DNA of 64,000 nucleotides from an uncultured Dehalococcoidia bacterium (lineage in GTDB: Bacteria; Chloroflexota; Dehalococcoidia; Lucifugimonadales; UBA1123): the NCBI GenBank assembly GCA_958296105.1, contig OY282441.1:655800-719799 (forward strand). The letters are read 5' to 3'. The notes below the pieces were generated by a model. That model searched no databases. It was not told the DNA's origin and was given only the letters and a program-made list of their open reading frames with translations. Position 1 is the first letter of the stretch. Every line of letters starts with the position of its first letter. Both the position numbers and the translations under genes were made by a program. This document shows positions 3,543 to 63,688 of the stretch, one piece after another.

Positions 3543-4856
3543 GTGCTGACCGTGCTGAGCAGGGTTCTCAGCATGCCGCCTGCGCTGCGCTACCCGAAGT
3601 ATCGCGCCTACTGGCTCGGCACTCTGGCGTCTGTGGGCGGCTTCCAAGTGCTGATGTTCGCGCAGGGCTGGCTGACGTACGAGCTGACCGGATCGACGCT
3701 GGCGCTTGGGTGGGTGAGTCTCGCCAGCGCCTCGTCAGCGGTGGCGCTGAACCTGTTCGGCGGGGTGTTCGCGGACAGGCTGGATAAGCGCAAGCTCATC
3801 TTCGCGGCGCAGCTGATCACGGCGTCGCTGATCTTCCTGCTCGGCGCGCTTACGATGCTGGAAGTGGCGCGGCTGTGGCATATCATCGTTCTGGCGTTCG
3901 CTGCGGGAGCGGTGAACGCATTCGATCAGCCGGCGCGCCAAGCTCTGTATCCGCATCTGATAGAGCGCAAGGCGATTATGAGCGCGGTTGCGCTGAATTC
4001 GGCGATATGGCAGGGAACTCGTATCGTGTCTCCGGCTGCGGCGGGCTTCATCATCGGCTGGACCAGCACCGCCGCGGCGATCTTCGTGGCAGCCGCCGGG
4101 TTCGTGGTCATGGCGGCGGTGATCGCGTTTCTGCGGATTCCCAAAATCGAGATCGGCTCACGTGGAAACGCGCTGGGCGACCTCGTGGAGGGGCTGAAGT
4201 TCATCAAGGGCAACCCTATATTCTGGTTCCTGATCGGGATGACGTTCTTCAACAGCTTCTTCGGCATGGCGTACATAATGATGATGCCGGCGTTCGCGGT
4301 GGACGTGCTGAAGGTGGGGTCGGAGGGCCAAGGGGTGCTGATGGGCGTTAGCGGGGTTGGCGCGCTCACGATGACGGTTCTTCTCGGCGCGGTGGGCAAC
4401 TTCCGACGCAAGGGGCTTCTGATCATCGGCGGCGGGCTGGGATTTGGGCTGACGATCTCGGCGTTCGCGCTGACTTCGGAGTACGTGGGGTCGTATCAGC
4501 TGGCGATGGCGCTGATGGTGGCGATGGGGGTTTGCAGTACGACTTACATGATCACGATAATGAGCTCGCTTCAGCTGCTGGTGCCGGACAGGATGCGCGG
4601 GCGCGTGATGGGCTTCTACGGCATGACGTGGAGCATAATGCCGATCGGCGGGTTCTGGGCGGGAGCGATGGCGGAGTTCGCGGGTGTGGCAGTGACGGTT
4701 GCCATAGGCGGCGGTCTGGTGGCGGCGTTCGCGCTGGGGCCGGCGCTGGTGAACAGGCAGGTGCGGAACCTGGGGGCGATTCTGGAGATGGCGGGAGGCG
4801 ATGGGAGAGGGGCGGCTGGCGAGCGGGTGGCTTCAGGGACGATGGAGAAGGCTTGA
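3543..4856 (+). CDS. Major facilitator superfamily transporter (EntS-like)
   Basis: The 437-residue product has about twelve hydrophobic helices and starts PKYRAYWLGTLASVGGFQV, the pattern of the MFS_3/EntS group of exporters. The loop after helix 2 reads FGGVFADRLDKRKLIF, the cytoplasmic GxxxDRxxRR signature between helices 2 and 3; FDQPARQALYPHLI is the conserved stretch after helix 4. MRGRVMGFYGM marks the equivalent loop in the second half. It probably exports a small molecule from the inner membrane by proton antiport. The substrate is unknown and the neighbours give no clue. The GTG at 3543 is used; a start a few codons downstream is possible. Confidence 0.85.
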   Translation: MLTVLSRVLSMPPALRYPKYRAYWLGTLASVGGFQVLMFAQGWLTYELTGSTLALGWVSLASASSAVALNLFGGVFADRLDKRKLIFAAQLITASLIFLLGALTMLEVARLWHIIVLAFAAGAVNAFDQPARQALYPHLIERKAIMSAVALNSAIWQGTRIVSPAAAGFIIGWTSTAAAIFVAAAGFVVMAAVIAFLRIPKIEIGSRGNALGDLVEGLKFIKGNPIFWFLIGMTFFNSFFGMAYIMMMPAFAVDVLKVGSEGQGVLMGVSGVGALTMTVLLGAVGNFRRKGLLIIGGGLGFGLTISAFALTSEYVGSYQLAMALMVAMGVCSTTYMITIMSSLQLLVPDRMRGRVMGFYGMTWSIMPIGGFWAGAMAEFAGVAVTVAIGGGLVAAFALGPALVNRQVRNLGAILEMAGGDGRGAAGERVASGTMEKA

Positions 4857-4981
4857 CCTAAGCGCGGCGGCTCACTCAAAGAGTTTCGGGTACACGGCTG
4901 CGCCTGCTGCCGACGCGTGTTCCCAAGACGGGACCCGCAGGCTGACGATGGTCGCATTCAGCTGGGGCTTGGTCTCGCCTA

Positions 4982-5242
4982 TCAGCCCAAGAGCTTGTTC
5001 AGGGCAACGTTGACTGCGACTCCGACTCCCACAGCGCTCACGAGCCACCTTATCAAACGGGACTCCATGGCTGATAGATCGGCTCTCAATCGGGACTCCA
5101 TAGCGGCTATATCGGCTCTCCATTTGACGACTTCGGTTCTCAGCTCGGCTACGTCGGCTTTCGTCGCCAGATGGTCGTATGCGCCTTCGAGTCGGCTGAC
5201 TCGCTCTTCGGTGGATGGTCTGTCGTCCGTTTGGGTGGTCAT
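4982..5242 (-). CDS. Coiled-coil protein with C-terminal membrane anchor, copy 4 of 4
   Basis: This is an 86-residue protein and the promoter-distal member of a four-gene tandem family. The N-terminus (MTTQTDDRPSTEERVSRLEG, then AYDHLATKADVAELRTE) is shared by all copies. A short coiled coil follows, made of heptad-like and 11-residue units (two copies of RAD(I/L)xAMESRL), then one hydrophobic C-terminal helix (WLVSAVGVGVAVNVALNKLLG). The overall plan resembles DUF1640/CCDC90-type proteins. It is the most divergent copy (W in place of G/L at VVKW, NKLLG rather than NRLLG). Function unknown. Confidence 0.7.
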   Translation of the reverse strand: MTTQTDDRPSTEERVSRLEGAYDHLATKADVAELRTEVVKWRADIAAMESRLRADLSAMESRLIRWLVSAVGVGVAVNVALNKLLG

Positions 5243-5275
5243 ATCCCCTCCGATGCCGCCTGTGTGGGATGCCGC

Positions 5276-5524
5276 TCAGCCCAAGAGCCTGTTCAGGGCA
5301 ACGGTGACTGCGACTCCGATTCCCGCAACGCTCACGATCCACTTTACCATTCGGGCCTCCATAGCGGCCATCTCGGCTCTTCCTTTGGCGACTTCAGTTC
5401 TCAGCTCGGCTATCTCCGTGCGCACGTCGGCTACGTCGGCTTTCGTCGCCAGATGGTCGTATGCGCCTTCGAGTCGGCTGACTCGCTCTTCGGTGGATGG
5501 TCTGTCGTCTGTTTGGGTGGTCAT
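5276..5524 (-). CDS. Coiled-coil protein with C-terminal membrane anchor, copy 3 of 4
   Basis: At 82 residues this is the shortest copy of the tandem family. It has the same N-terminus and the same C-terminal anchor (WIVSVAGIGVAVTVALNRLLG). The coiled coil is reduced to RTEIAEL-RTEVAKG-RAEMAAMEARM. The loss or gain relative to its sisters falls in whole 7-residue or 11-residue units, which keeps both the reading frame and the coiled-coil register. The spacer to the next copy is about 33 bases and is itself conserved between copies, so each duplication unit includes gene and leader. Confidence 0.7.
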   Translation of the reverse strand: MTTQTDDRPSTEERVSRLEGAYDHLATKADVADVRTEIAELRTEVAKGRAEMAAMEARMVKWIVSVAGIGVAVTVALNRLLG

Positions 5525-5557
5525 ATCCCCTCCGATGCCGCCTGTGCGGGATGCCGC

Positions 5558-5827
5558 TCAGCCCAAGAGCCTGTTCAGGGCAACGGTGATTGCGACTCCG
5601 ATTCCCACGGCGCTCACGAGCCACTTTACCATTCGGGTCTCCATGGCAGCCATCTCGGCTCTCAATTTGACGACTTCGGTTCTCACATCGGCTACCTCTA
5701 TTCGCACCTCGGCTATCTCCGTGCGCACGTCGGCTACGTCGGCTTTCGTCGCCAGATGGTCGTATGCGCCTTCGAGTCGGCTGACTCGCTCTTCGGTGGA
5801 TGGTCTGTCGTCTGTTTGGATGGTCAT
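5558..5827 (-). CDS. Coiled-coil protein with C-terminal membrane anchor, copy 2 of 4
   Basis: This 89-residue copy has four consecutive heptads (RTEIAEV, RIEVADV, RTEVVKL, RAEMAAM) before the single membrane helix. It therefore differs from its neighbours by insertion of two heptads. A single tail anchor with no signal peptide predicts a cytoplasmic coiled coil attached to the inner membrane, probably oligomeric. This prediction rests on sequence pattern only. It begins MTIQTDD rather than MTTQTDD. Confidence 0.7.
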   Translation of the reverse strand: MTIQTDDRPSTEERVSRLEGAYDHLATKADVADVRTEIAEVRIEVADVRTEVVKLRAEMAAMETRMVKWLVSAVGIGVAITVALNRLLG

Positions 5828-5863
5828 GGGGGATCCTCCTATGCCGCCTGTGTGGGATGCCGC

Positions 5864-6199
5864 TCAGCCCAAGAGCCTGTTCAGGGCAACGGTGACTGCG
5901 ACTCCGATTCCCACAACGCTCACGATCCACTTTACCATTCGGGTCTCCATGGCGGATAGATCGGCTCTCATTCGGGTCTCCATAGCAGATAGATCGGCTC
6001 TCATTCGGGTCTCCATGGCGGATAGATCGGCCCTTCCTTTGGCGACTTCAGTTCTCACCTCGGCTGCCTCTATTCGCACATTGGCTATCTCTGTGCGCAC
6101 GTCGGCTACGTCGGCTTTCGTCGCCAGATGGTCGTATGCGCCTTCGAGTCGGCTGACTCGCTCTTCGGTGGATGGTCTGTCGTCTGTTTGGGTGGTCAT
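5864..6199 (-). CDS. Coiled-coil protein with C-terminal membrane anchor, copy 1 of 4
   Basis: This is the first and longest copy (111 residues). After the shared N-terminus and three heptads it carries three nearly perfect 11-residue units (RADLSAMETRM), encoded by a 33-bp tandem repeat at about 5946-6035, then the tail anchor WIVSVVGIGVAVTVALNRLLG. A G/A-rich ribosome-binding stretch (GGATCCCCC complement) precedes the ATG. It faces the divergent GatC-like gene across an about 110-base intergenic region with a palindrome (6246-6261) that could serve both directions. Confidence 0.7.
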   Translation of the reverse strand: MTTQTDDRPSTEERVSRLEGAYDHLATKADVADVRTEIANVRIEAAEVRTEVAKGRADLSAMETRMRADLSAMETRMRADLSAMETRMVKWIVSVVGIGVAVTVALNRLLG

Positions 6200-6245
6200 G
6201 GGGGATCCTCAGATGTCGTTCGGGGCGCGGCGGTCTTGCGTTGAG

Positions 6246-6261
6246 AGTATGCTATCATACT
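6246..6261. promoter_or_regulatory. Palindrome overlapping divergent extended -10 promoters
   Basis: AGTATG-CTAT-CATACT is a perfect 6-bp inverted repeat with a 4-base centre. Read rightward it contains TGC-TATCAT (extended -10) for the GatC-like gene; read leftward it contains TGA-TAGCAT for the coiled-coil array. It could be a shared promoter with an operator, but this is inferred from sequence alone. Confidence 0.4.
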
Positions 6262-6307
6262 TGGCGAACATGCAAGGTCGATACGAAGTCAAGTGGAGTG
6301 TGACACC

Positions 6308-6517
6308 ATGCCGGCGCGAGCCAGACAGGTTACCAGAGATTCGATACTGGCGCAGGCGGCGGCGCTGGGACTCGTCATCGAGGAGGGGGAGATGGACGGG
6401 CTGGCAGGGCGCGTGAGGTCGGCGGCGGAAGACGTAGAGAAGATGGACGGGCTTGGAATCGAGGGGCGGGAGCCGGCGGTGAAGTTTCGCGCGCGCGCCG
6501 AACGGAGCGGGCTATGA
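6308..6517 (+). CDS. GatC-like small protein coupled to an amidase
   Basis: This is a 69-residue acidic helical protein (start MPARARQVTRDSILAQAAALG). It looks like the short GatC-type partner or an amidase accessory subunit, because it directly precedes an amidase-signature enzyme and overlaps it by four bases (ATGA at 6514). The ATG at 6308 has GGAG nine bases upstream (6295-6298). It has no clear catalytic motif. Similarity to GatC is weak and rests mostly on size, position and the LAGRVRSAAEDVEKMD segment. Confidence 0.6.
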   Translation: MPARARQVTRDSILAQAAALGLVIEEGEMDGLAGRVRSAAEDVEKMDGLGIEGREPAVKFRARAERSGL

Positions 6518-7944
6518 CTTCGGCATCCGATGAGCTTTGCTTTCTGACGGTCAGCGAGGCGGGGCGGCGGATCGAGGCGCGGCAGCTGTCGCCGGTAGAG
6601 CTGGTCGAGGCGCACATCGACAGGATAGAGCGCACCAAGCCGGCGCTGAATTCGTTCATAACTCTGCTGGCCGACGAGGCGCTGGAACAGGCGCGCGAGG
6701 CGGAGCGGGAGATCGCGGCGGGGGGATACCGGGGGCCGCTGCACGGCGTCCCCATAGGGCTGAAAGACCTTTACTATACGAAGGGGATTCTCACGACGGT
6801 CGGCAGCAAGATCATGCGCGACTTCACGCCGGGTTACGATGCCGCCGTGACCGAGCGGTTCGAGGAGGCGGGGGCGGCGCTGCTGGGCAAGCTCCAGATG
6901 CACGAGTTCGCGCTAGGCGCGACCAGCGTCAACCCGCACGACGGCCCGGCGCGCAATCCGTGGGACACGTCCAGAATCACGGGGGGATCGAGCGGAGGGT
7001 CGGGGGCGGCGGTGGCGTCCGGCCAGTGCATGGCTGCGCTGGGCAGCGACACGGGCGGCTCCATCCGAATACCCAGCGGGCTGTGCGGAATTGTGGGGCT
7101 GAAGCCGACTTTCGGGCGCGTGTCGAGATACGGGGTGCATCCGCTGTCGTGGAGTCTCGACACCGTTGGGCCAATGACGAGAACCGCGCTCGATTCGGCA
7201 ATCGTCCTCAACGCGCTGGCGGGGTACGACGCGCGAGATCCTTCATCGGTCGATGTCCCTGTCGAGGACTTCACGGCGGGCATAGAAGGCGGAATTCGCG
7301 GGCTGCGGATCGGTGTTCCCACAGACTTCTTCTACGACGTGATCGACGAGGAGGTCGCGGCTGCGATGTGCGAGGCGGCGGGGGTTCTGACAGAGCTGGG
7401 GGCGACTGTGGAGCGCTGCTCGATACCCGCGCTCGACCACGCGCTGGGCGTATCGGGCGCGATACTGGTTACGGAGGCGGCGGAGACGCTGTTCGACCAC
7501 CTGCGGGATAGGCCGGAGGACATAGGGGCGGACGTGCGGGCGCGTCTGTACCTAGGGGCAATGACGCCGGCGGTCGATTACATCAAGGCGCAACGGGCGC
7601 GGAGCGCGTACAACGCGCAGCTCGCCGACGCGATGAAGACCTACGACCTGCTGATAGCGCCGAGTGTGGCGGTGGGCGCGCCGCGCATTGACCAAGAGCT
7701 GGTGGAGGTGGGCGGCAGGCGGGAGAACGCGCTGTCGCTCATGTCGAGGCTGACGCGGCCATTCAACCTGACTGGGCAGCCAACGATCTCCATGCCGTGC
7801 GGGTTCACATCGGAGGGGATGCCGATTGGGATGCAGATAGCGGGCAGGCTGTGGGGGGAGTCCACCGCGCTCAGGGCGGCGCACGGTTACGAGCAGGCTA
7901 CGGAGTGGCACACGAGAAAGCCGGGGGGATTGGTCGGTGGATAG
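6514..7944 (+). CDS. Amidase-signature enzyme (GatA-like)
   Basis: This 476-residue protein is an amidase-signature hydrolase with the Ser-cisSer-Lys triad. Lys84 is in GVPIGLKDLYY, the cis-serine in TGGSSGGSGAAVASG (about 159-160), and the nucleophile Ser183 in GSDTGGSIRIPSG. It resembles GatA, the amidase subunit of the Glu-tRNA(Gln)/Asp-tRNA(Asn) amidotransferase, and the GatC-like gene just upstream fits that. No GatB is present here, however, and many stand-alone amidases share these motifs. I therefore call a GatA-like amidase rather than GatA proper. A true GatA would act with GatB on mischarged tRNA; a stand-alone enzyme would hydrolyse a small amide. Confidence 0.88.
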   Translation: MTSASDELCFLTVSEAGRRIEARQLSPVELVEAHIDRIERTKPALNSFITLLADEALEQAREAEREIAAGGYRGPLHGVPIGLKDLYYTKGILTTVGSKIMRDFTPGYDAAVTERFEEAGAALLGKLQMHEFALGATSVNPHDGPARNPWDTSRITGGSSGGSGAAVASGQCMAALGSDTGGSIRIPSGLCGIVGLKPTFGRVSRYGVHPLSWSLDTVGPMTRTALDSAIVLNALAGYDARDPSSVDVPVEDFTAGIEGGIRGLRIGVPTDFFYDVIDEEVAAAMCEAAGVLTELGATVERCSIPALDHALGVSGAILVTEAAETLFDHLRDRPEDIGADVRARLYLGAMTPAVDYIKAQRARSAYNAQLADAMKTYDLLIAPSVAVGAPRIDQELVEVGGRRENALSLMSRLTRPFNLTGQPTISMPCGFTSEGMPIGMQIAGRLWGESTALRAAHGYEQATEWHTRKPGGLVGG

Positions 7945-7967
7945 CGCGGTTTTGACATGGGGGATCA

Positions 7968-8245
7968 GTCTCTCCCTAACCCTCTCTTCGAGGGAGAGGG
8001 GATGAATTGGAACCTGTCGATCTGTCATATCCAAAGTGGACACCCTCACCCTAACCCTCTCCCTAAGGGAGAGGGGATGACTTGGAGAGGGGATGGAATG
8101 GAACACACGGTACAAGGGGGCGGAATGGCAGAATGATTCGACCTCTACCTTCTTCGAGGGAGGGGGGATGGCTTGGAAGCTGTCGATCTGTCATATTCAA
8201 GTGGGCACCCTCACCCTAGCCCTCTCCCTTCGAGGGAGAGGGGAT
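7968..8245. repeat. Palindromic repeat cluster A (CCCTCTCCCT family)
   Basis: Most of the 460-base gap after the amidase gene is made of about four copies of a stem-loop element, CCCTCACCCTAACCCTCTCCC then a short loop and AGGGAGAGGGGAT. They are interspersed with three copies of TGTCGATCTGTCATAT (near 8018, 8178 and 8274). The arms are perfect or nearly so (CCCTCTCCCT/AGGGAGAGGG). I see no coding potential. Confidence 0.85.
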
Positions 8246-8343
8246 AACTTGGGGAGGGTATGGCTTGGAATATGTCGATCTGTCATATCTAAATTGAAGC
8301 GGATGATTCAACGAGCGGTGAAATCGGTGATGCGCCCTGCCCT

Positions 8344-8376
8344 ACCCGTCTTCCGGCCTTCGCCGGGATGACGGGT
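8344..8376. repeat. Second palindromic element (ACCCGTC...GACGGGT)
   Basis: ACCCGTC-TTCCGG-ccttcg-CCGGGA-TGACGGGT folds into a long hairpin just upstream of the hydrolase. It resembles the widespread CCCGTCAT/CCGGCGAAGGCCGG intergenic repeats and differs in sequence from the CCCTCTCCCT family. Confidence 0.7.
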
Positions 8377-8406
8377 GGGAGGCTGTATATATATGGAGGA
8401 GCTATC

Positions 8407-9336
8407 GTGACAACAGACGTTTCCAGCGGGGGGCTGTCGCTCCACGACGCGGCGCGCGCGCAAGGGGTGACTTTCGAGCGCGAGGCGGTGCCGGAGGATA
8501 GGTTCGTCGATGCCAACGGGATGACGTTCCACTATCTGGACTGGGGCAATCCGACGGCGCCGGATATGCTGCTGCTGCACGGGTTCGCGCAGACGTGCCA
8601 CTCGTGGGACTTCGTGGCTCTGGCGTTCTGCGACAGGTTCCACGTGGTATCGCTGGACCAGAGGGGACACGGCGACAGCGACTGGGCGGAGGACGGCGAC
8701 TACTCGCCAGAGACTCAGCAGGCGGACATCGCGGCGGTGGTGGCGGCGGTGGGGCTGAAAGACTTCGTGCTGATGGGGCTGTCTATGGGCGGGCGCAACT
8801 CTTTCACCTACGCCGCGAACCATCCGCGCGACGTGCGCGCGCTGGTGATAGTGGACGCAGGCCCCCAGAACATGCGCTCAGGCTCGCAGAACATCCGCAG
8901 CTTCGTTCAGCAGGAGGACGAGCTGGACTCGGTAGATGCTTTCGTGGAGCGCGTGCTGAAGTACAACCCGCGCCGCGACCCTGTGCAGGTGCGCGGGTCG
9001 ATCATGCACAATCTGAAGCAGCTGCCAAACGGCAAATGGACGTGGAAGTACGACAGGCGGCTGAGACAGCCGGGCGGGCGCAGGTTCCAGCATAACGCGG
9101 CTATGACCGAGCGGCTATGGGGGTACATGGAGAGCCTCGCCTGTCCCACGCTGGTGGTGCGGGGGGCGCAGAGCGACATCATCGCGCTGGATACCGCTGA
9201 CGGGATGCACAAGCGCATACCCAACGGGCGTATGGCGACGGTGGAAGACGCGGGGCATCTGGTGATGGGCGACAATCCATCCGGGTTCGAGAAGGCGGTG
9301 ACGGGGTTTCTAGGGGAAGTGGAGACGAGCGAGTAA
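8407..9336 (+). CDS. Alpha/beta hydrolase
   Basis: This 309-residue protein has the alpha/beta hydrolase fold. LLLHGFAQTCHSWD is the oxyanion-loop HGF motif, GLSMGGRN is the nucleophile elbow with Ser126, and DAGHLVMGDNP contains the catalytic His. The GTG at 8407 was chosen because GGAGGA lies six bases upstream; the ATG at 8368 lies in the palindromic repeat. The substrate cannot be predicted; epoxide hydrolases, haloperoxidases and ester hydrolases share this pattern. The gene stands alone between repeats and the HTTM gene. Confidence 0.88.
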   Translation: MTTDVSSGGLSLHDAARAQGVTFEREAVPEDRFVDANGMTFHYLDWGNPTAPDMLLLHGFAQTCHSWDFVALAFCDRFHVVSLDQRGHGDSDWAEDGDYSPETQQADIAAVVAAVGLKDFVLMGLSMGGRNSFTYAANHPRDVRALVIVDAGPQNMRSGSQNIRSFVQQEDELDSVDAFVERVLKYNPRRDPVQVRGSIMHNLKQLPNGKWTWKYDRRLRQPGGRRFQHNAAMTERLWGYMESLACPTLVVRGAQSDIIALDTADGMHKRIPNGRMATVEDAGHLVMGDNPSGFEKAVTGFLGEVETSE

Positions 9337-10747: not shown

Positions 10748-10789
10748 CGCTCCTCCACGAGGGAAGCGCATGGGGATGATAGGGTCTCT

Positions 10790-11310
10790 TTCTCACCCTC
10801 TCCCCAACCCTCTCACGTCTAGGGAGAGGGGGTCTGTTGGCTGGGGATGATGGGGGCTCTTTTTCACCCTCACCCTAGCCCTCTCCCGTCAAGGGAGAGG
10901 GGATCTGTTGAATGGGATTCAGGATTATCCCCGCATATTTGCCCACTCCTCTCAGACAGGGAGATTATAGGGACTCACCCTCACCCCAACCCTCTCCCGT
11001 CAAGGGAGAGGGGGTCTGTTGGCTGGGGATGATGGGGGCTCTTTTTCACCCTCACCCTAGCCCTCTCCCGTCAAGGGAGAGGGGATCTGTTGAATGGGGA
11101 TGATGGGGTCTCTTTCTCACCCTCTCCCCTGCACTCTCACGTATATATAGGGAGAGGGGGTCTGTTGGCTGGGGATGATGGGGGCTCTTTTTCACCCTCA
11201 CCCTAGCCCTCTCCCGTCAAGGGAGAGGGGATCTGTCGAATGGGGATGATGGGGTCTCTTTCTCACCCTCTCCCCTGCACTCTCACGTATGTAGGGAGAG
11301 GGGGATGTCG
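10790..11310. repeat. Palindromic repeat cluster B with 74-bp higher-order units
   Basis: The 600-base gap after the HTTM gene is almost entirely repeats. About seven stem-loops of the CCCTCTCCC...GGGAGAGGGG family occur. A roughly 74-base unit (GGGGATGATGGGGGCTCTTTTTCACC through GGGGATCTGTTGAATGGG) recurs near 10844, 11028 and 11170. Variant stem-loops with loops of different length (ACGTATATATAGGGAGAGG, ACGTATGTAGGGAGAGG) alternate with it. I see no gene inside it. Confidence 0.85.
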
Positions 11311-15164: not shown

Positions 15165-15500
15165 CGGGATCACCCTCTCCCTTCGAGGGAGGGGGGGTTT
15201 TTGTATCAGTTTAGTAGGCAGGGGGATCACCCTCACCCTAACCCTCTCCCGTCAAGGGAGAGGGGATTTCTGTAATGCTGGCCAATGAGAGGGAGGGGGC
15301 TTCTGTAACGCTGGCCAATGAGGGAGTGGGGACTTTGTAACGCTGGCCAAAATGATGCAGCATCGCGTTAGTAGGTAGCAGGATCACCCTCACCCTAGCC
15401 CTCTCCCTCAGAGGGGGAGGGGATTTCTGTAATGCTGTCCAATGAGAGAGTGGGGGCTTCTGTAACGCCGTCCAATGAGGGAGGGGGGGCTTCCGTACTG
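15165..15500. repeat. Palindromic repeat cluster C
   Basis: Several full and degenerate copies of the CCCTCTCCC...GGGAGAGGGGATTT element occur here. Each is followed by TCTGTAA(T/C)GCTG(G/T)CCAATGAGAG, a flank close to the one at clusters E and F (GTATCGCTGTCCAGTT). Degenerate copies retain only the flank. Nothing coding is seen. Confidence 0.85.
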
Positions 15501-41489: not shown

Positions 41490-41690
41490 CGGGGCTTCAC
41501 CCTCTCCCTTCTAAGGAGAGGGGATTTCACTAACGCTTTGTATGTGGGGCTTCACCCTCACCCTAACCCTCTCCCTCAAGGGAGAGGGGATTTTTGTATC
41601 GCTGTCCAGTTTGCGGGTTGGGGCTTCACCCTCACCCTAACCCTCTCCCTCAAGGGAGAGGGGACTTTTGTCCCGCTGTCCAGTTGAGGG
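41490..41690. repeat. Palindromic repeat cluster F
   Basis: Three copies of the composite GGGGCTTCACCCTCACCCTA/CCCTCTCCCTcaAGGGAGAGGGGATTTTTGTATCGCTGTCCAGTT element occur between the antitoxin and ligA. The rest of 41393-41786 shows no gene. Confidence 0.85.
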
Positions 41691-52748: not shown

Positions 52749-53498
52749 ATGTACGCGAGGGAGAAGCTCAAGTCGGCGAAGACGCGCAGGCGGTACACGA
52801 AGCTGCCCGACCCGCCAGATCCTACAGATATGACGCAGCACAAGTACATAACCGAAATCGACACCATCCTCAGAACGCGGTACGGGGGACGCGCGGACGT
52901 GTACATAGATGGGCAGGGCTATCTGTGCTATCGCACCACCGAGCTCATGTTCGCGCCGGACTGCATAATCTCCTTTGGCGTGGACGCCGAGGCGCTCGAA
53001 GATGCCAACGGATACGCCATAAGTGAGGTGGGAAAGCCGCCGGACTTCGTGCTGGAAGTGGCGTCTCCATCCACAGGCAGGCGCGACTACACCGAGAAGC
53101 GCGTGGGATACGAGGGGCTGCTCGTGGGCGAATACTGGCGCTTCGACAACACGGGCGGCGAGTACCACGACCGCGCGCTGGCAGGCGATCTGCTGGTGGA
53201 CGGCAGATACGTCGACATAGAGCTGCACGTGGAGGCGGACGGGATGATCTGGGGACACAGCCCGGCGCTGGGACTCGATCTGTGCTGGGACGACGGGCGT
53301 CTGCGCTTCTACGACCCGGTGGCTGGAGAGTACCTGCGCAGCCATTCGGAAGCGGAGGCGGAGCGCATCGCAGCGGAAGCGGAGCGCGACTCGGCCGAAG
53401 CCAGAGCGGGCGTGGCAGAAGCCAGGGCGACTGTGGCGGAGGCGGAAGTCCGCCGGCTTCGGGAGATGCTGCTCAGGCTCGAAGGAGGGGACGGCTAA
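52749..53498 (+). CDS. Uma2-family PD-(D/E)XK protein, copy 1 of 4
   Basis: This 249-residue protein has a Uma2 domain (PF05685, restriction-endonuclease-like fold), with PDC at 70-72, Glu103 in DFVLEVAS, and Lys117 in RRDYTEKRVGYEGL. A C-terminal coiled coil of Ala/Glu/Arg heptads ends RLREMLLRLEGGDG. Uma2 proteins are expanded in cyanobacteria and Chloroflexota, and their function is unknown despite the nuclease-like fold. It has the shortest tail linker type (ATVAEAEVRRL). The leader GAGGGAGGCGCGCA is shared by all copies. Confidence 0.85.
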   Translation: MYAREKLKSAKTRRRYTKLPDPPDPTDMTQHKYITEIDTILRTRYGGRADVYIDGQGYLCYRTTELMFAPDCIISFGVDAEALEDANGYAISEVGKPPDFVLEVASPSTGRRDYTEKRVGYEGLLVGEYWRFDNTGGEYHDRALAGDLLVDGRYVDIELHVEADGMIWGHSPALGLDLCWDDGRLRFYDPVAGEYLRSHSEAEAERIAAEAERDSAEARAGVAEARATVAEAEVRRLREMLLRLEGGDG

Positions 53499-53590
53499 GC
53501 GTCGTCCGAACCCTGAAGTCGGGCGCGGACCTGCCGCATCTCGCGCAGGTCGGCGAGCATACGGCGCAGGAAATCAAAGGGAGACGCGCA

Positions 53591-54385
53591 ATGTACGCGA
53601 GGGAGAAGATCAAGACGGCGAAGACGCGCAGGCGGTACACGCTGCTGCCCGACCCGCCAGATCCTACAGATATGACACAGCACAAGTACATAACCGAAAT
53701 CGACACCATCCTCAGAACGCGGTACGGGGGACGCGCGGACGTGTACATAGATGGGCAGGGCTATCTGTGCTACCGCACCACCGAGCTCATGTTCGCGCCT
53801 GACTGCATAATCTCCTTTGGCGTGGACGCCGAGGCGCTCGAAGATGCCAACGGATACACCATAAGCGAGGTGGGGAAGCCGCCGGACTTCGTGCTGGAAG
53901 TGGCGTCTCAGTCCACAGGCAGGCGCGACTACACCGAGAAGCGCGTGGGCTACGAGAGGCTGCTCGTGGGCGAATACTGGCGCTTCGACAACACGGGCGG
54001 CGAGTACCACGACCGCGCGCTGGCAGGCGATCTGCTGGTGGACGGCAGATACGTCGACATAGAGCTGCACGTGGAGGCGGACGGGATGATCTGGGGACAC
54101 AGTCCAGCGCTGGGGCTGGACCTGTGCTGGGACAACGGGCGTCTGCGCTTCTACGACCCGGTGGCTGGAGAGTACCTGCGCAGCCATTCGGAAGCGGAGG
54201 CGGAGCGCATCGCAGCGGAAGCGGAGCGCGCCTCGGCGGAAGCCAGAGCAGGGGTGGCAGAAGCCAGAGTGGGCGTGGCGGAGCATTGGCTGGCAACGGA
54301 GCGGCAAGCCAGAGAAGCGGCGGAGGCGGAAGTCCGACGGCTTCGGGAGATGCTGCTCAGGCTCGAAAGAGGGGACGACGGCTAA
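53591..54385 (+). CDS. Uma2-family PD-(D/E)XK protein, copy 2 of 4
   Basis: This copy (264 residues) is nearly identical to its sisters in the Uma2 core, with Q for P in EVASQSTGRRDYTEK and R for G in VGYERLLV, both shared with copy 3. The coiled-coil tail is longer (extra GVAEARVGVAEHWLATERQA units) and ends LERGDDG. The core PD, Glu103 and Lys117 residues are intact. A reading frame opens upstream through the CcmI-like tail fragment, but the conserved ATG with its GGAG-type leader marks the start. Confidence 0.85.
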   Translation: MYAREKIKTAKTRRRYTLLPDPPDPTDMTQHKYITEIDTILRTRYGGRADVYIDGQGYLCYRTTELMFAPDCIISFGVDAEALEDANGYTISEVGKPPDFVLEVASQSTGRRDYTEKRVGYERLLVGEYWRFDNTGGEYHDRALAGDLLVDGRYVDIELHVEADGMIWGHSPALGLDLCWDNGRLRFYDPVAGEYLRSHSEAEAERIAAEAERASAEARAGVAEARVGVAEHWLATERQAREAAEAEVRRLREMLLRLERGDDG

Positions 54386-54480
54386 GCGTCGTCCGAACCC
54401 TGAAGTCGGGCGCGAACCTGCCGCATCTCTTCGCGCAGGTCGGCGAGCATACGGCGCAGGAAACCAGAGGGAGGCGCGCA

Positions 54481-55230
54481 ATGTACACGAGGGAGAAGAT
54501 CAAGACGGCGAAGACGCGCAGGCGGTACACGCTGCTGCCCGACCCGCCAGATCCTACAGATATGACGCAGCACAAGTACATAACCGAAATCGACACCATC
54601 CTCAGAACGCGGTACGGAGGACGCGCGGACGTGTACATAGACGGGCAGGGCTATCTGTGCTACCGCACCACCGAGCTCATGTTCGCGCCGGACTGCATAA
54701 TCTCCTTTGGCGTGGACGCCGAGGCGCTCGAAGATGCCAACGGATACACCATAAGCGAGGTGGGGAAGCCGCCGGACTTCGTGCTGGAAGTGGCATCTCA
54801 ATCCACAGGCAGGCGCGACTACACCGAGAAGCGCGTGGGCTACGAGAGGCTGCTCGTGGGTGAATACTGGCGCTTCGACAACACGGGCGGCGAGTACCAC
54901 GACCGCGCGCTGGCAGGCGATCTGCTGGTGGACGGCAGATACGTCGACATAGAGCTGCATGTGGAGGCGGACGGGATGATCTGGGGACACAGTCCGGCGC
55001 TGGGACTCGATCTGTGCTGGGACGACGGGCGTCTGCGCTTCTACGACCCGGTGGCTGGAGAGTATCTGCGCAGTCATTCGGAAGCGGAAGCGGAGCGCGC
55101 CTCGGCGGAAGTCAGGGCGGGCGTGGCAGAGCATTGGCTGGCAGCGGAGCGGCAAGCCAGAGAAGCGGCGGAGGCGGAAGTCCGACGGCTTCGGGAGATG
55201 CTGCTCAGGCTCGAAGGAGGGGACGGCTAA
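54481..55230 (+). CDS. Uma2-family PD-(D/E)XK protein, copy 3 of 4
   Basis: This 249-residue copy starts MYTREKIKTAKTRRRY. Core catalytic-type residues are conserved. The tail has lost the ERIAAEA heptads (AEAERASAEVRAGVAEHWLA), so its length equals copy 1 by a different combination of units. It shares the Q and R substitutions with copy 2, suggesting that these two are each other's closest relatives or have exchanged sequence. Confidence 0.85.
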   Translation: MYTREKIKTAKTRRRYTLLPDPPDPTDMTQHKYITEIDTILRTRYGGRADVYIDGQGYLCYRTTELMFAPDCIISFGVDAEALEDANGYTISEVGKPPDFVLEVASQSTGRRDYTEKRVGYERLLVGEYWRFDNTGGEYHDRALAGDLLVDGRYVDIELHVEADGMIWGHSPALGLDLCWDDGRLRFYDPVAGEYLRSHSEAEAERASAEVRAGVAEHWLAAERQAREAAEAEVRRLREMLLRLEGGDG

Positions 55231-55325
55231 GCGTCGTCCGAACCCTGAAGTCGGGCGCGGACCTGCCGCATCTCTTCGCGCAGGTCGGCGAGCATACGGC
55301 GCAGGAAACCAGAGGGAGGCGCGCA

Positions 55326-56138
55326 ATGTACGCGAGGGAGAAGATCAAGTCGGCGAAGACGCGCAGGCGGTACACGCTGCTGCCCGACCCGCCAGACCCT
55401 ACAGATATGACGCAGCACAAGTACATAACCGAAATCGACACCATCCTCAGAACACGGTACGGAGGACGCGCGGACGTGTACATAGATGGGCAGGGCTATC
55501 TGTGCTATCGCACCACCGAGCTCATGTTCGCGCCGGACTGCATAATCTCCTTTGGCGTGGACGCCGAGGCGCTCGAAGATGCCAACGGATACACCATAAG
55601 CGAGGTGGGGAAGCCGCCGGACTTCGTGCTGGAAGTGGCGTCTCCATCCACAGGCAGGCGCGACTATACCGAGAAGCGCGTGGGATACGAGGGGCTGCTC
55701 GTGGGCGAATACTGGCGCTTCGACAACACGGGCGGCGAGTACCACGACCGCGCGCTGGCAGGCGATCTGCTGGTGGACGGCAGATACGTCGATATAGAGC
55801 TGCACGTGGAGGCGGACGGGATGATCTGGGGACACAGTCCGGCGCTGGGACTCGATCTGTGCTGGGACGACGGGCGTCTGCGCTTCTACGACCCGGTGGC
55901 TGGAGAGTACCTGCGCAGCCATTCGGAAGCGGAAGCGGAGCGCATCGCAGCGGAAGCGGAGCGCATCGCAGCGGAAGCGGAGCGCGACTCGGCGGAAGCC
56001 AGAGCAGGCGTGGCAGAAGCCAGGGCGGGCGTGGCGGAGTATGGGCTGGCAGCGGAGCGGCAAGCCAGAGAAGCGGCGGAGGCGGAAGTCCGACGGCTCC
56101 GGGAGATGCTGCTCAGGCTCGAAGGAGGGGACGGCTAA
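55326..56138 (+). CDS. Uma2-family PD-(D/E)XK protein, copy 4 of 4
   Basis: At 270 residues this is the longest copy. It has two ERIAAEA heptads and two EARAGVA units before the common end RLREMLLRLEGGDG. The core matches copy 1 (P and G at the two diagnostic positions). Its 3' end meets the 3' end of the convergent CcmI-like gene, which overlaps it by four bases. This arrangement is the source of the tail fragment carried by the other copies. Confidence 0.85.
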   Translation: MYAREKIKSAKTRRRYTLLPDPPDPTDMTQHKYITEIDTILRTRYGGRADVYIDGQGYLCYRTTELMFAPDCIISFGVDAEALEDANGYTISEVGKPPDFVLEVASPSTGRRDYTEKRVGYEGLLVGEYWRFDNTGGEYHDRALAGDLLVDGRYVDIELHVEADGMIWGHSPALGLDLCWDDGRLRFYDPVAGEYLRSHSEAEAERIAAEAERIAAEAERDSAEARAGVAEARAGVAEYGLAAERQAREAAEAEVRRLREMLLRLEGGDG

Positions 56139-58486: not shown

Positions 58487-59004
58487 CCGCCGTCCTCTCG
58501 GGGGCGCGGAGGCGGACCTTCGGCGGGGTCGGGGTCCAGGGCGCCTTCCAGTCTGGCCAGGTAGGCTGACCGAGCGGAGTCGTCTTCCCCGTCCCTGCCC
58601 GTCTGCGTGGAGGGCGGCGCGGCGCGCATCCAGCGCAGGGTCAGCAGCAGCGCGGCGAGCGCGAGAGCGAACGCCACGGGCGGGACGAACCAAGCGGCGA
58701 GGCCGAACCCGCTGGTGGGCGGTTCGAGCAGGACGCTGGGGCCGTACCTCTCCACGAAGAAGTCTCTGATCTGATCGTCGCTCCAGCCCTCGGCGAGCTT
58801 CTCGCTCACGATGGCGCGCATCTGACCGGCGAGGGCGTTCTGGCTCTGGTCTATGGACTCGCCGGGACAGACGGGGCACATGATGGTCTGGTTCAGCTGC
58901 TGCGCTCTGCGCTCGACGTGGGGAACGTCGCGCTGGGCGGAGATGACGCATGCCGCCAGCGTGAGGGCGGCGGCGAGCAGTATGGCTGTGGATGCCGATT
59001 TCAC
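58483..59004 (-). CDS. ccmH: Cytochrome c-type biogenesis protein CcmH
   Basis: CcmH (173 residues) has a lipoprotein-like signal (ALTLAAC), the redox motif CPVC at 43-46 in IMCPVCPGESIDQSQNALAGQ, then SDDQIRDFFVERYGPSVLLEPP and a C-terminal membrane helix. It keeps apocytochrome cysteines reduced for heme attachment. It is the first gene of the ccmH-ccmF-ccmI-like operon. Its likely clients in this window include the di-heme cytochrome at 12.4-13.8 kb. Confidence 0.94.
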   Translation of the reverse strand: MKSASTAILLAAALTLAACVISAQRDVPHVERRAQQLNQTIMCPVCPGESIDQSQNALAGQMRAIVSEKLAEGWSDDQIRDFFVERYGPSVLLEPPTSGFGLAAWFVPPVAFALALAALLLTLRWMRAAPPSTQTGRDGEDDSARSAYLARLEGALDPDPAEGPPPRPREDGG

Positions 59005-59321
59005 GGGGTCAATTATAGCGGATCCAAGGGGGTTGTCTGAATCCCGATTTTTACGCTATCCCCGCGATGTGCGATGGAGGATGGGCATGACTCGAAATTC
59101 CAGGATCCGGAGCGTCGAGGTTCTTCTTTAAGAGCAACGTCCGAATTTAGGGCGTGTTAACGCTAACTCGTCTGGAAGTGTTGCTGTTCCTAAAGTCTAT
59201 CGAAGCTCATGGGGTTGGAAACGGAACTCACACAAGCTCAAGTTGAGCTAATACAGCACTGTATGCCTGTACAACGTGGAAATATCAGCATCCTCGCATC
59301 GTTCTTCGAGCCACTCCTCCA

Positions 59322-61829
59322 CTATTTCCGAGTTGGAATATCTCGTAGAATGCTCGCGTCGAGAGACGAGAAAACATCTGGGTACAGCAAACCCCGTGTT
59401 TTCATCACTTCATACAGGTCATTGTTAAGACTTAGGGGAGTTGTCCGTACTGCTGCATCCCACAGTGCGCTGACCAATCTGTCGCCGAGTTCCATGAACT
59501 GCTGTAATTCGACGACCTTCATGTCCGGCGAGGGACTCGCGTTATCGGTAGTCGGCGACAAAGGTCCGACGAAAACCGGAATAATTTCCGACGGCTGATG
59601 GTTGTCCTTTACCCATTGAACGTGGTTATGCAGCTGACCCACGTAGTCTTTTCGGTAGAATGATGTCTGTTGTTTGCCAGTCTTTACCTCCATGCAGACG
59701 GCGGCCCCATCTTCTCCAAGCCAAAGAACGTCTGGACCCGTACCAGATTCATTATCTGGCCTTGTGGATCTCAGGCCGAGATATTGACCCAGACAACGCA
59801 GGGCTTCTTCCGTCTGACGCCAAGACCCATTCCCGTTAAGTGGCACAAGATCTTGGGTGATCGTCTTGGGAATCTCAACGGAGATGGAATTCGAGTGTCC
59901 GATCCGCATTTGTTCTGCGACATGCGACACTTGTGGCGGAACCGGTGTCGCCGTAGCTGGTGGACTCGGGGTATGACGCGGCATATCGGATTGGGCTACA
60001 TAGGCTCTCCCGTAAAAATGCGCGGCATTCGTGTCGTCACCGCCCATCTCGAAAGCGAAACCGAGCCATAAGCTCAACCATGCTCCAGTATATTGACTAA
60101 ACTCAAAGGCATCTGGAAGAACCGCGTCCAAAACACCCGCCGCACTCTGGAAATCCCTGTCCCAAAAGGCTTTCCCGAATCTTGCTTCAGCGAGAGCAAC
60201 TTCGAGCGCTTTCTCCATGTCAATTGGATCGCTTTCAGAAGACAAATCCCTCATGTTGTCTGTGTAGAACTGGATCCATCCAGGGGCGCGATCAAGGCAA
60301 GCGGCGGCGGCTGAAGCTAGCCCGTCGGTATCTTGCGCGCTCTTGGAGACGTCTTCCCCGATTTGTATCTGCTTTTGCAGGAACTTGGGCAGCAGAGAGC
60401 GGTTACGCGGTAGAAGAAGCCATTCCACCAAACCCTTTCCAGTAAGTAGAACGACTCCGTGATCACTCATACCTCTTGAGATGCGTCCAAAACTTTGGAC
60501 GATCCGCGATGCCAACATACTGCGCAGACTATTTTGCATGTTCAACCGCTCCCATTGGAAACGTTCCAAAGGGCCCGATCCTGTTGGCAGTTCGTCTAGC
60601 ACCATCATCCGGCAAGTGTCCCCGGGCAGGTCTATACCGTCATATCTGGCAGCGAGTATCAGCTTTTTCGGTGGTTTGGCATTGCGAAACGAATCGACGG
60701 CTTGTGGTACGTTGGGGGGTGGCTGGGCTATCTCGGACCACTTCTTACCCCCAGAAAAACTGGGAACCAGTATCAACGCCTTTTTGTCCTTTATGACCTC
60801 CTTGGCTGACGCTACGTCATCATCATCTACCCCTTCGACTACGGACGGGATGAGTATCATCCTTTCGCACTCGCCTGCTGTGGTGGATGGAGCCACTATC
60901 CTGTCAGGCTGGCGGCCAAAAGCCCTTACGAAGCTGTCGGGGGCGCTCAATGTTGCCGACAAGTAAACTCGCCTAACTCCCTTGTTAAAGTAAGGCAGCG
61001 TGGAAACTGGCACTACCGGGGGCGTAAGTGTTACTTCCTTATCGGAAATTAAGAGACAGCACAGGTCTTCATGGTCTCGAATATGCTCCCAAGAAAACAT
61101 AGTGCTGAGCGGTTCCCTGAGATTGGCGCTGAGGAGTAATCGGCGCAGTTCTCTGACATTACGCCGTACCTCGGATGGGTGTGCGAAAAACTGGCTTGAG
61201 GATTCCCCACTGGAAACTTCAGCATAGCTGCTCTCCAAGCCTACCGAATCGTGATATGGTCGAAACAACGCGACTATCTGTTCATAGGTTTCAGTCAATT
61301 CCGCACGGGCAATCGATAGCGAGAATTGGTCGCGCAGAATATGTTCGGCGGTATGGGCGTCGTCGAATATGACGGCAGCTACATCGCCCGACCTAAATCG
61401 AGTTTTGCCGTTAAATAGCGCTTGATATGTGGTTACGCATGGAGCTTCAGCGCGATGGTATAGGCCATCAGGTGAAAATTTCCCGTGGTAATAAGTTGTC
61501 GCTGGCAGCCCATAATCCCTAGCTTTGTTAGCAGTCTGCTCAACAAGCTGAATCGAGTTACATGCGTAAACAACCTTACGCCGGGTCTCGTTCACCAAAG
61601 ATTGGGCGATGAGCAACCCTACTAGGGTCTTTCCTGCACCCGTATTCAGGACAACTGCCACGTCGTTCAAGGCCCTGTGGTCGTTCCATTCGCGTAAAGC
61701 ATCCCCTTGAGCCAACCAAAGGTCATTTATATTGCCGTCGGTAACGGCGGATGCTTGGAAAATCTCTATGGGATCTGTCGGTTTTGCTTGCTGGCTCTGT
61801 ACTTGGATTTTGGAAAAGTCGAAGCTCAT
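59322..61829 (-). CDS. DinG/XPD-like helicase fused to a PD-(D/E)XK nuclease domain
   Basis: This 835-residue protein is a two-domain candidate defence or repair enzyme. The SF2 helicase part has Walker A TGAGKT (63-68), motif II DDAH (156-159), SAT (291-293), the DinG/XPD-type RYDGIDLPGDTC and motif VI QSFGRISR (445-452). No iron-sulfur cysteine cluster is evident. A TPR-like stretch (about 580-615) is followed by a PD-(D/E)XK domain: GPD (698-700), then CMEVKTGK with Glu714 and Lys716. AAGGAG precedes the ATG at 61829. Base composition is clearly less GC-rich than neighbouring genes, and a decayed transposase lies just upstream, both suggesting horizontal acquisition. Confidence 0.85.
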   Translation of the reverse strand: MSFDFSKIQVQSQQAKPTDPIEIFQASAVTDGNINDLWLAQGDALREWNDHRALNDVAVVLNTGAGKTLVGLLIAQSLVNETRRKVVYACNSIQLVEQTANKARDYGLPATTYYHGKFSPDGLYHRAEAPCVTTYQALFNGKTRFRSGDVAAVIFDDAHTAEHILRDQFSLSIARAELTETYEQIVALFRPYHDSVGLESSYAEVSSGESSSQFFAHPSEVRRNVRELRRLLLSANLREPLSTMFSWEHIRDHEDLCCLLISDKEVTLTPPVVPVSTLPYFNKGVRRVYLSATLSAPDSFVRAFGRQPDRIVAPSTTAGECERMILIPSVVEGVDDDDVASAKEVIKDKKALILVPSFSGGKKWSEIAQPPPNVPQAVDSFRNAKPPKKLILAARYDGIDLPGDTCRMMVLDELPTGSGPLERFQWERLNMQNSLRSMLASRIVQSFGRISRGMSDHGVVLLTGKGLVEWLLLPRNRSLLPKFLQKQIQIGEDVSKSAQDTDGLASAAAACLDRAPGWIQFYTDNMRDLSSESDPIDMEKALEVALAEARFGKAFWDRDFQSAAGVLDAVLPDAFEFSQYTGAWLSLWLGFAFEMGGDDTNAAHFYGRAYVAQSDMPRHTPSPPATATPVPPQVSHVAEQMRIGHSNSISVEIPKTITQDLVPLNGNGSWRQTEEALRCLGQYLGLRSTRPDNESGTGPDVLWLGEDGAAVCMEVKTGKQQTSFYRKDYVGQLHNHVQWVKDNHQPSEIIPVFVGPLSPTTDNASPSPDMKVVELQQFMELGDRLVSALWDAAVRTTPLSLNNDLYEVMKTRGLLYPDVFSSLDASILRDIPTRK

Positions 61830-61904
61830 CTCCCTACGCTCCTTTGCGGTTTGTTTCGTTTGCCGGGATCTCATTCACCACTGGCAATAAGCTATCTGTG
61901 TTCA

Positions 61905-62440
61905 TCAAACAGATTTATTATAGACCGTTAAAAGGGGATTGGCTAGAAGCCATCTCAATAAATGCCTGAGCAAGATGACGATGTATCCGAGATGAACGAA
62001 GCCGAGCCAGCAGTCGGCATGGTACTCATACCTGACCGCCAATCTGCGGAAGCTGCCCCAGCCAAGCGAACACAGTCTCTCGACCTTCCAGCGTTTCCTG
62101 TAACGCGCAGCGGTCGTCCGTCCTGGGTCATTGAGAGCAACATCGAGGGGGGCGGAGTCGTAAGCGCGGTCGCCGATGGGTCTTTGGGGCAGCTCGTCGA
62201 CCAACATGTCTTCCAACGTGGCTTCTACGAGTCTGACCTCCATGAGGCGAAGCGCTCTCGGTGTGTACGGCGACAGGAAGACCGGAACGGTCTGCCACTG
62301 CCATGAGCTTCGTATCCCTGCCACGCTTGGTCATTCCAACCTGTTTTGGCAGCTGCGAATGGATAGGTTCGGGCGCGTCCTGCCAGCGCTCCCAAAATAG
62401 CGCCTGCCAAATTGGGACGCTTCCCCAGTTGGGGGTTGGG
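61905..62440 (-). pseudogene. IS5-type DDE transposase remnant, frameshifted
   Basis: This is the C-terminal half of an IS5-family transposase. [20 protein letters not shown] and HTESASPH occur in one frame, then [25 protein letters not shown] and RYRKRWKVERL...FRRLAVRYEYH in the next frame. The join at about 62241 needs deletion of one G (CATGGAGG where CATGAGG is expected). The N-terminal region is missing or scrambled. I see no clear terminal inverted repeats, so the element is dead. Confidence 0.8.
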
Positions 62441-62704
62441 GAATTTCGTTGGCGGCTGGTGGTACAATGGCTACGAAGCGGGTGGCGCGCCTCGTTCTTC
62501 TATATATTCCTGTATATGTTCTGCTCGCAGCCGATTGGGGCGAACGATCTGATACAATCGGGCAGGCGCGCGGATGGCGGACAGTACGGTCTTCATGCGG
62601 ATTTGGGGTTCTGTCAGAATCGGGGTTCGCGGGATGGATCGGCGCGTGTTCGCGATGGCGCGTATTCATCGAAACTGTGCGGAAGCTGTGTGAGGAGCAA
62701 ACCG

Positions 62705-63688
62705 ATGTCCGTTCTACTTGTCGCATCAGATCGGCCCGGCGCGGGGAAGACGGCGGTGGCCGTCGGGCTGGCTCGCGTAGCGCGGCGGGCAGGCATCGGC
62801 GCGGCGGCGTTCAAGCCGTTCGCATCGAGCGCGGACGACCGCGACGCTCGCGTCATCGGCGAGCTGGCGAATCGGGCGCCGGACGGCTGGCCCATGTCGA
62901 TCGGCGATTCGGGGCCGACTGCGGACGACCTGCGCTCGACGGCAGGCGCGCTCGAAGACGCGGGCGCGGAGCTGTCCATCGTGGAGCTTCCGTCTGCGGC
63001 GGGGCCCGAAGGGGCAAGGGCGGCGGCGGACGCGCTGGGCGCAAGCGCGCTGCTTGTGGCAGGCTATCGCCGAGGTCTGACGGGGGATGATCTGAAGGGC
63101 TGGCGCGACAGGCTGGGCGACAGGCTCATCGGCGCTCTGGTGAACGGGGTCACGAGATACATGGGGACGGAGGCGAGGAACGTCCTCGCTCCGTCTGTGG
63201 AAGGCGCGGGCGTGAAGTGTCTGGGGCTGATACCCGAAGACAGGCTGATGCTGTCGGTCTCCATCGAGGAGGCGCGGGCAGGGCTTGGCGGTCGGTACGT
63301 GGTGGACGAAGGCGACACGAACGGGCCGATCGAGTGGTTCCAGGTCGGCGGGATGAGCCTAGATCCGGGGGAGCTGCGCTTCGGCCTGTACGAGAACAAC
63401 GCCGTGGTCGTCAGGGGGGACAGGCCGGACATACAGATGTCTGCGCTGAACGCCTCCGCCTCGTGTCTCGTGCTGACCGGGGGCATCGAGCCTATCGAGT
63501 ACATCCTCTACGAGGCGCGCGAGGAGGAGACGCCGATCATGGTCGTCGAGCCGGATACGCTGGCGACTATGGCCGCGCTGGAAGGGGTCAGCGCAGGGGC
63601 GCGGATGGACGGCGAGGTGAAGGCGCGACGGTTCAGCGAGCTATTGGAAGCTCACGTGGATATGGACGCGCTCCTGCCGCCCAAGTAG
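62705..63688 (+). CDS. BioD-like P-loop/DRTGG-domain protein
   Basis: This 327-residue protein starts MSVLLVASDRPGAGKTAVAVGLA, a dethiobiotin-synthetase-like P-loop. After the ATPase-like half come a linker (GLGGRYVVDEGDTNG) and a C-terminal DRTGG-type domain (ENNAVVVRGDRPDIQMSALNASASCLVLTGG). The layout resembles the N-terminal region of long phosphotransacetylases and stand-alone AAA_26-DRTGG proteins, which are thought to sense nucleotides. No Pta catalytic domain follows. GAGGAG eight bases upstream supports the ATG at 62705. An extended -10-like TGG-TACAAT occurs at 62460-62468. Confidence 0.8.
   Translation: MSVLLVASDRPGAGKTAVAVGLARVARRAGIGAAAFKPFASSADDRDARVIGELANRAPDGWPMSIGDSGPTADDLRSTAGALEDAGAELSIVELPSAAGPEGARAAADALGASALLVAGYRRGLTGDDLKGWRDRLGDRLIGALVNGVTRYMGTEARNVLAPSVEGAGVKCLGLIPEDRLMLSVSIEEARAGLGGRYVVDEGDTNGPIEWFQVGGMSLDPGELRFGLYENNAVVVRGDRPDIQMSALNASASCLVLTGGIEPIEYILYEAREEETPIMVVEPDTLATMAALEGVSAGARMDGEVKARRFSELLEAHVDMDALLPPK

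Follow-up and report, generated by a model that had tools for sequence, protein, structure and literature searches.

A gene near one end of the 64,000-nucleotide stretch of Dehalococcoidia DNA analyzed here (the window) appears to join a helicase and a nuclease in a single chain, and raises the question of whether it is a defense system and, if so, whether it is one already known. Our answer is that it is almost certainly a horizontally acquired member of Hna (PDC-S28), a single-protein abortive-infection system, and that it belongs to a subclade apart from the Hna of S. meliloti. A defense role for the gene is very likely. Hna is said to have been published as a single-gene defense system by Sather et al. 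in 2023.

The Gene and Its Helicase Motifs

Read from the sequence, the gene is an intact ORF of 835 aa on the reverse strand (59322–61829, starting at 61829), and profile and structure matches identify it as a single-gene helicase-nuclease of the Hna/PDC-S28 family. An upstream ATG at 61874 is a possible alternative start; in relatives, the start is the methionine of MxFDFSK. Selection on the gene is purifying, with dN about 0.2 versus a dS above 2 that is near saturation. The helicase motifs listed in the original prediction could all be located in this ORF, on the same strand, and were compared across an alignment of 25 rows (eight in the Hna clade and 17 others). In the Walker A motif TGAGKT (residues 63–68; 61626–61643), T, G, G, K, and T are kept in 25/25 homologs and the third residue is variable. 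Q41 (61707–61709), the equivalent of Q39 that coordinates ATP in Hna, is invariant in all 25 rows, as is the SAT of motif III (residues 291–293; 60951–60959). The Q, G, R, and R of motif VI, QSFGRISR (residues 445–452; 60474–60497), are likewise invariant, and the DDAH box (residues 156–159; 61353–61364) and the RYDGID of helicase domain 2 (residues 395–400; 60630–60647) were placed by the alignment. Pfam models hit the protein with ResIII (1e-11), DEAD (5e-8), and Helicase_C_2 (1e-5). A middle stretch once described as TPR-like is indeed helical, with four helices at residues 538–612 (59994–60218, reverse strand) in the predicted structure; Pfam and NCBIfam matched neither a TPR nor a nuclease family in the protein.

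A C-Terminal PD-(D/E)XK Nuclease

The GPD (residues 698–700) and the E and K of the nuclease core proposed at the C terminus are present, in a domain of about residues 655–795 (59445–59867, reverse strand) recognized as PD-(D/E)XK from its predicted structure and fold matches. The catalytic P699, D700, E714, and K716 (59682–59735, reverse strand) are invariant in 25/25 rows and correspond to P712, D713, E727, and K729 of Hna, active-site residues that were mutated in the published study (PMC13381803). A sequence search with the nuclease domain alone gives just a weak match to Hna (E 0.25), and comparison of folds was therefore needed. Folded alone, the domain matches Hna residues 660–840 (Z 17.7, rmsd 2.8, 179 residues), with the nickase BspD6I and FokI next (Z 10–11). 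The original prediction had staked its nuclease on residues 670–760 adopting the PD-(D/E)XK fold, and the resemblance to Hna and then to FokI-type nucleases bears this out. Hna likewise heads the structural matches to the whole-chain model (Z 30.4, 681 residues, with domain placement unsure at an rmsd of 13.9), and the best match outside Hna is DinG (Z 17.4); confidence in this model is middling (pLDDT 69, pTM 0.57), and residues 315–413 are poor. A nuclease can be inferred with confidence.

Membership in the Hna/PDC-S28 Family

PADLOC represents PDC-S28 by two models, PDLC04986 and PDLC04987, and both match the window protein over approximately its full length, at 910 bits (E 5.5e-274) for the better-fitting model and 547 bits (2e-164) for the other. 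Scored against the same pair of models, the tested Hna of S. meliloti (845 aa, taken from pSymA at locus L005 and given the name SMa2245 in PMC12445080) reaches 1020 and 400 bits. The best model differs, being PDLC04987 for the window protein and PDLC04986 for the tested Hna. Because the tested Hna matches both models, PDC-S28 and Hna are one family, and the window protein is a member of it. In the literature searched, a single paper mentions PDC-S28 by name. In a survey of B. cereus, PDC-S28 is one of the PADLOC candidates coinciding with systems to which DefenseFinder gives another name. A phmmer search of the PDB returned Hna (10uj, E=2e-61, window residues 4–756) as the sole full-length relative there; the chain of 10UJ, 9YHN, and 9YKJ is Hna according to PMC13381803, where the Hna mechanism is also published.

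Identity to the tested Hna is just 24%–27%. The two proteins have in common a single gene of ~840 aa, SF2 HEL1–HEL2 domains without Fe-S cysteines, a C-terminal PD-(D/E)XK domain with catalytic P-D, E, and K, and a full-length structural match. The features of sequence, structure, and gene neighborhood by which we delimit the family are seen in the window protein: full-length similarity to Hna and to the PDC-S28 models, SF2 motifs lacking the XPD-type four-cysteine Fe-S cluster, a C-terminal PD-(D/E)XK domain retaining the residues mutated in Hna, and a single gene with no conserved partner, its neighbors varying among the relatives examined.

Insertion between ccmH and a DRTGG-Domain Gene

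That the gene is foreign in composition to its flanks, as first proposed from the letters, is now measured, with a GC content of 0.519 in the gene and 0.637 elsewhere in the window; GC3 is 0.54, versus 0.83–0.86 in the flanking genes. By Pfam, the left flank is ccmH (CcmH, PF03918; 58483–59004, reverse strand), followed by ccmF, and the right flank is a gene with a P-loop (AAA_26/CbiA-like) and a DRTGG domain (62705–63688, forward strand). In 7/7 genomes of the same family (G001–G007), ccmH and the DRTGG gene are divergent neighbors a few hundred bases apart, and a homolog of the window gene was found in 0/7 of these genomes; the gap in the window is 3.7 kb (59004 to 62705). The inserted segment, to which no strand is assigned, runs approximately from 59025 to 62550, its ends being placed by the last recognizable promoter sequences within poorly conserved intergenic DNA. 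The dead IS5-type transposase reported beside the gene is there as well, as a decayed remnant in at least two frames (61905–62359, reverse strand; partial match to NCBIfam NF033580), and further copies of this remnant DNA lie elsewhere in the same genome. A promoter-like TAGCCA-17-TATAAT upstream of the gene (61917–61945, reverse strand) is a consensus match only, and a scan for promoters and terminators gave a number of sites not clearly above that in shuffles.

Because the site is empty in seven of seven family members, the GC content is 52% versus 64%, an IS5-type remnant adjoins the gene, and copies at 68%–72% identity occur elsewhere, the window gene is a horizontally acquired insert. Those copies are found at 68%–71% identity in three genomes of the same order but of other families, and at 72% in a fourth bin.

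Distribution and Neighbors of the Relatives

Among about 300 genomes of the phylum Chloroflexota, four others have a homolog. Homologs are also carried on 240 plasmid records, where they adjoin IS elements, integrases, toxin-antitoxin genes, and conjugation genes. The neighbors of the close relatives in the phylum vary: a serine recombinase and a HicB-like protein at L004, an HTH protein at L003, and a methylase-, GHKL-, and metallo-beta-lactamase-like group at L002. Had homologs been confined to syntenic housekeeping loci, the proposal of an anti-phage candidate would have lost its ground; the neighbors are instead a varied set of mobile, toxin-antitoxin, and defense-like genes.

Two genomes of different families share, at 97.6% identity, a 4.2-kb block made up of the Hna homolog and a metallo-beta-lactamase-fold gene and set in unrelated flanks (L002 8348–12553 and L039 419–4623). 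Among the relatives examined, this two-gene block is common to that one recent pair only. It points to recent transfer, and could in part be a binning artifact, several of the relatives being metagenome bins; neither the empty site nor the plasmid copies depend on this pair being correctly binned. The family-wide empty site and the near-identical block across families speak for gene-sized transfer in Dehalococcoidia-related Chloroflexota, and the homologs place Hna-type defense in these uncultured bacteria.

Two further observations concern these genomes. Next to the Hna homolog of L002, the stretch 4749–8843 encodes an N6-methylase-like protein, a double GHKL-ATPase-like protein, and a 233-aa product that no Pfam family matches; these are possibly a separate defense module. 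Two members of the Hna family, from different subclades, occur in genome G074; they are 68% (L040 8696–11203) and 32% (L008) identical to the window protein.

Mechanism and the N-Terminal Loop

By analogy with Hna, the SF2 motor would bind ATP and single-stranded DNA, and would keep the C-terminal PD-(D/E)XK nuclease from acting in cells that are not infected. On the same analogy, we infer exonuclease activity for the window protein, and phage defense with abortive infection as its probable outcome. The catalytic part of the Hna mechanism would very likely be valid here; a search of the literature found no phage assay of this protein's subclade.

The part of the mechanism that governs restraint and triggering is a different matter. 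The column of Hna R36, which coordinates ATP, holds R throughout the Hna clade (8/8 rows) and W or Y in all 17 other rows (W38 in the window protein), and that of P34 in the dimer loop holds P in 6/8 rows of the Hna clade and mostly D elsewhere (D36 in the window protein). T30 and D31 of the dimer interface fall opposite D31 and G32 in the 25-row alignment, a T-D pair lying one column earlier, so that this placement is alignment-dependent; in a pairwise-style alignment the loop region of the window protein is two residues longer than that of Hna. Since it does not match the T30/D31/P34 interface and the R36 that characterize the S. meliloti-type subclade, we file the window protein in the family but outside that subclade. 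The unrooted tree likewise splits the window clade from the Hna clade (support 98/96 and 100/99), grouping the window protein with five Chloroflexota sequences and with plasmid copies of Swingsia, Janthinobacterium, and an S. meliloti strain.

With P34 and R36 replaced and T30/D31 unmatched in its lineage, the dimer autoinhibition and SSB triggering of Hna are not simply transferable to the window protein, and the dimer and trigger part of the mechanism is uncertain for it. Of the clades sampled, only one carries the residues on which the published autoinhibition model rests, and the model is therefore not to be extended to the whole family without testing.

The systematic replacement of P34 and R36, with W or Y at position 36, also suggests a reading that overlaps the explanation preferred here: an Hna-family protein whose nuclease works as in Hna, and whose autoinhibition and phage trigger differ. 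The division of R36 and P34 between the clades and the strong separation of the tree favor it. However, dimer surfaces often diverge though the dimer persists, and the Q-motif glutamine is the same throughout. When R36 and Q39 of Hna were mutated together, ATPase activity was lost and nuclease activity gained (PMC13381803). We consider altered sensing of this kind possible, at somewhat less than even chances.

Other Explanations

Membership in Hna/PDC-S28, with or without altered sensing, has to be set against a chromosomal repair helicase of the DinG/XPD type that has gained a nuclease and serves DNA repair instead of defense. The core is DinG/XPD-like, and the window protein has the helicase core fold in common with DinG, XPD, and CasDinG; however, it differs from all of these in having no Fe-S cysteine set, with just C90 and C131 between Walker A and Walker B where the four-cysteine region would be, and in its extra C-terminal nuclease. 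Scores on the DinG, YoaA, and rad3 models are 15–19 bits against cut-offs of 247–789, which speaks against a DinG or ExoDinG repair gene, and the type IV CRISPR DinG (Csf4/CasDinG), whose model has a cut-off of 400 bits, was rejected at a score of 16. ExoDinG (e.g., S. aureus DinG) combines a DinG-like core with 3'-5' exonuclease function (PMC12345164, PMC13381803), and the exonuclease of B. subtilis DinG is described as DEDD (PMC12525004); this ExoDinG exonuclease is N-terminal and of DEDD type, whereas that of the window protein is C-terminal and PD-(D/E)XK. In Hna, the arch domain is reduced (PMC13381803). The patchy, plasmid-borne distribution and foreign composition also argue against a repair gene, as does the fact that the full-length relative of tested function is the phage defense protein Hna, and we regard this explanation as very unlikely.

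The suggestion in the original prediction that the fused system might be undescribed drew on the expectation that helicase-nuclease pairings are usually two genes, and could also appeal to a nuclease covered by no Pfam family, but it is scarcely credible now that the PDC-S28 and Hna matches reveal the same fusion in a family with a published mechanism, three PDB entries (10UJ, 9YHN, and 9YKJ), and a place in PADLOC.

Other Features of the Window and Genome

Elsewhere in the window, four tandem Uma2-family (PF05685) genes at 52749–56138 on the forward strand are 96.5%–99% identical over their first 200 aa. The 3.18-Mb genome of the same organism has 76 Uma2 matches above the family cut-off, many of them arrayed in tandem; for a putative nuclease family, this expansion is unusual. 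Tandem or dispersed repeats of the CTCACCCTCACCCC...AGGGAGAGGGGA type at 10771–11304, 15255–15497, and 41545–41685 seem to belong to a repeat family dispersed in the source genome.
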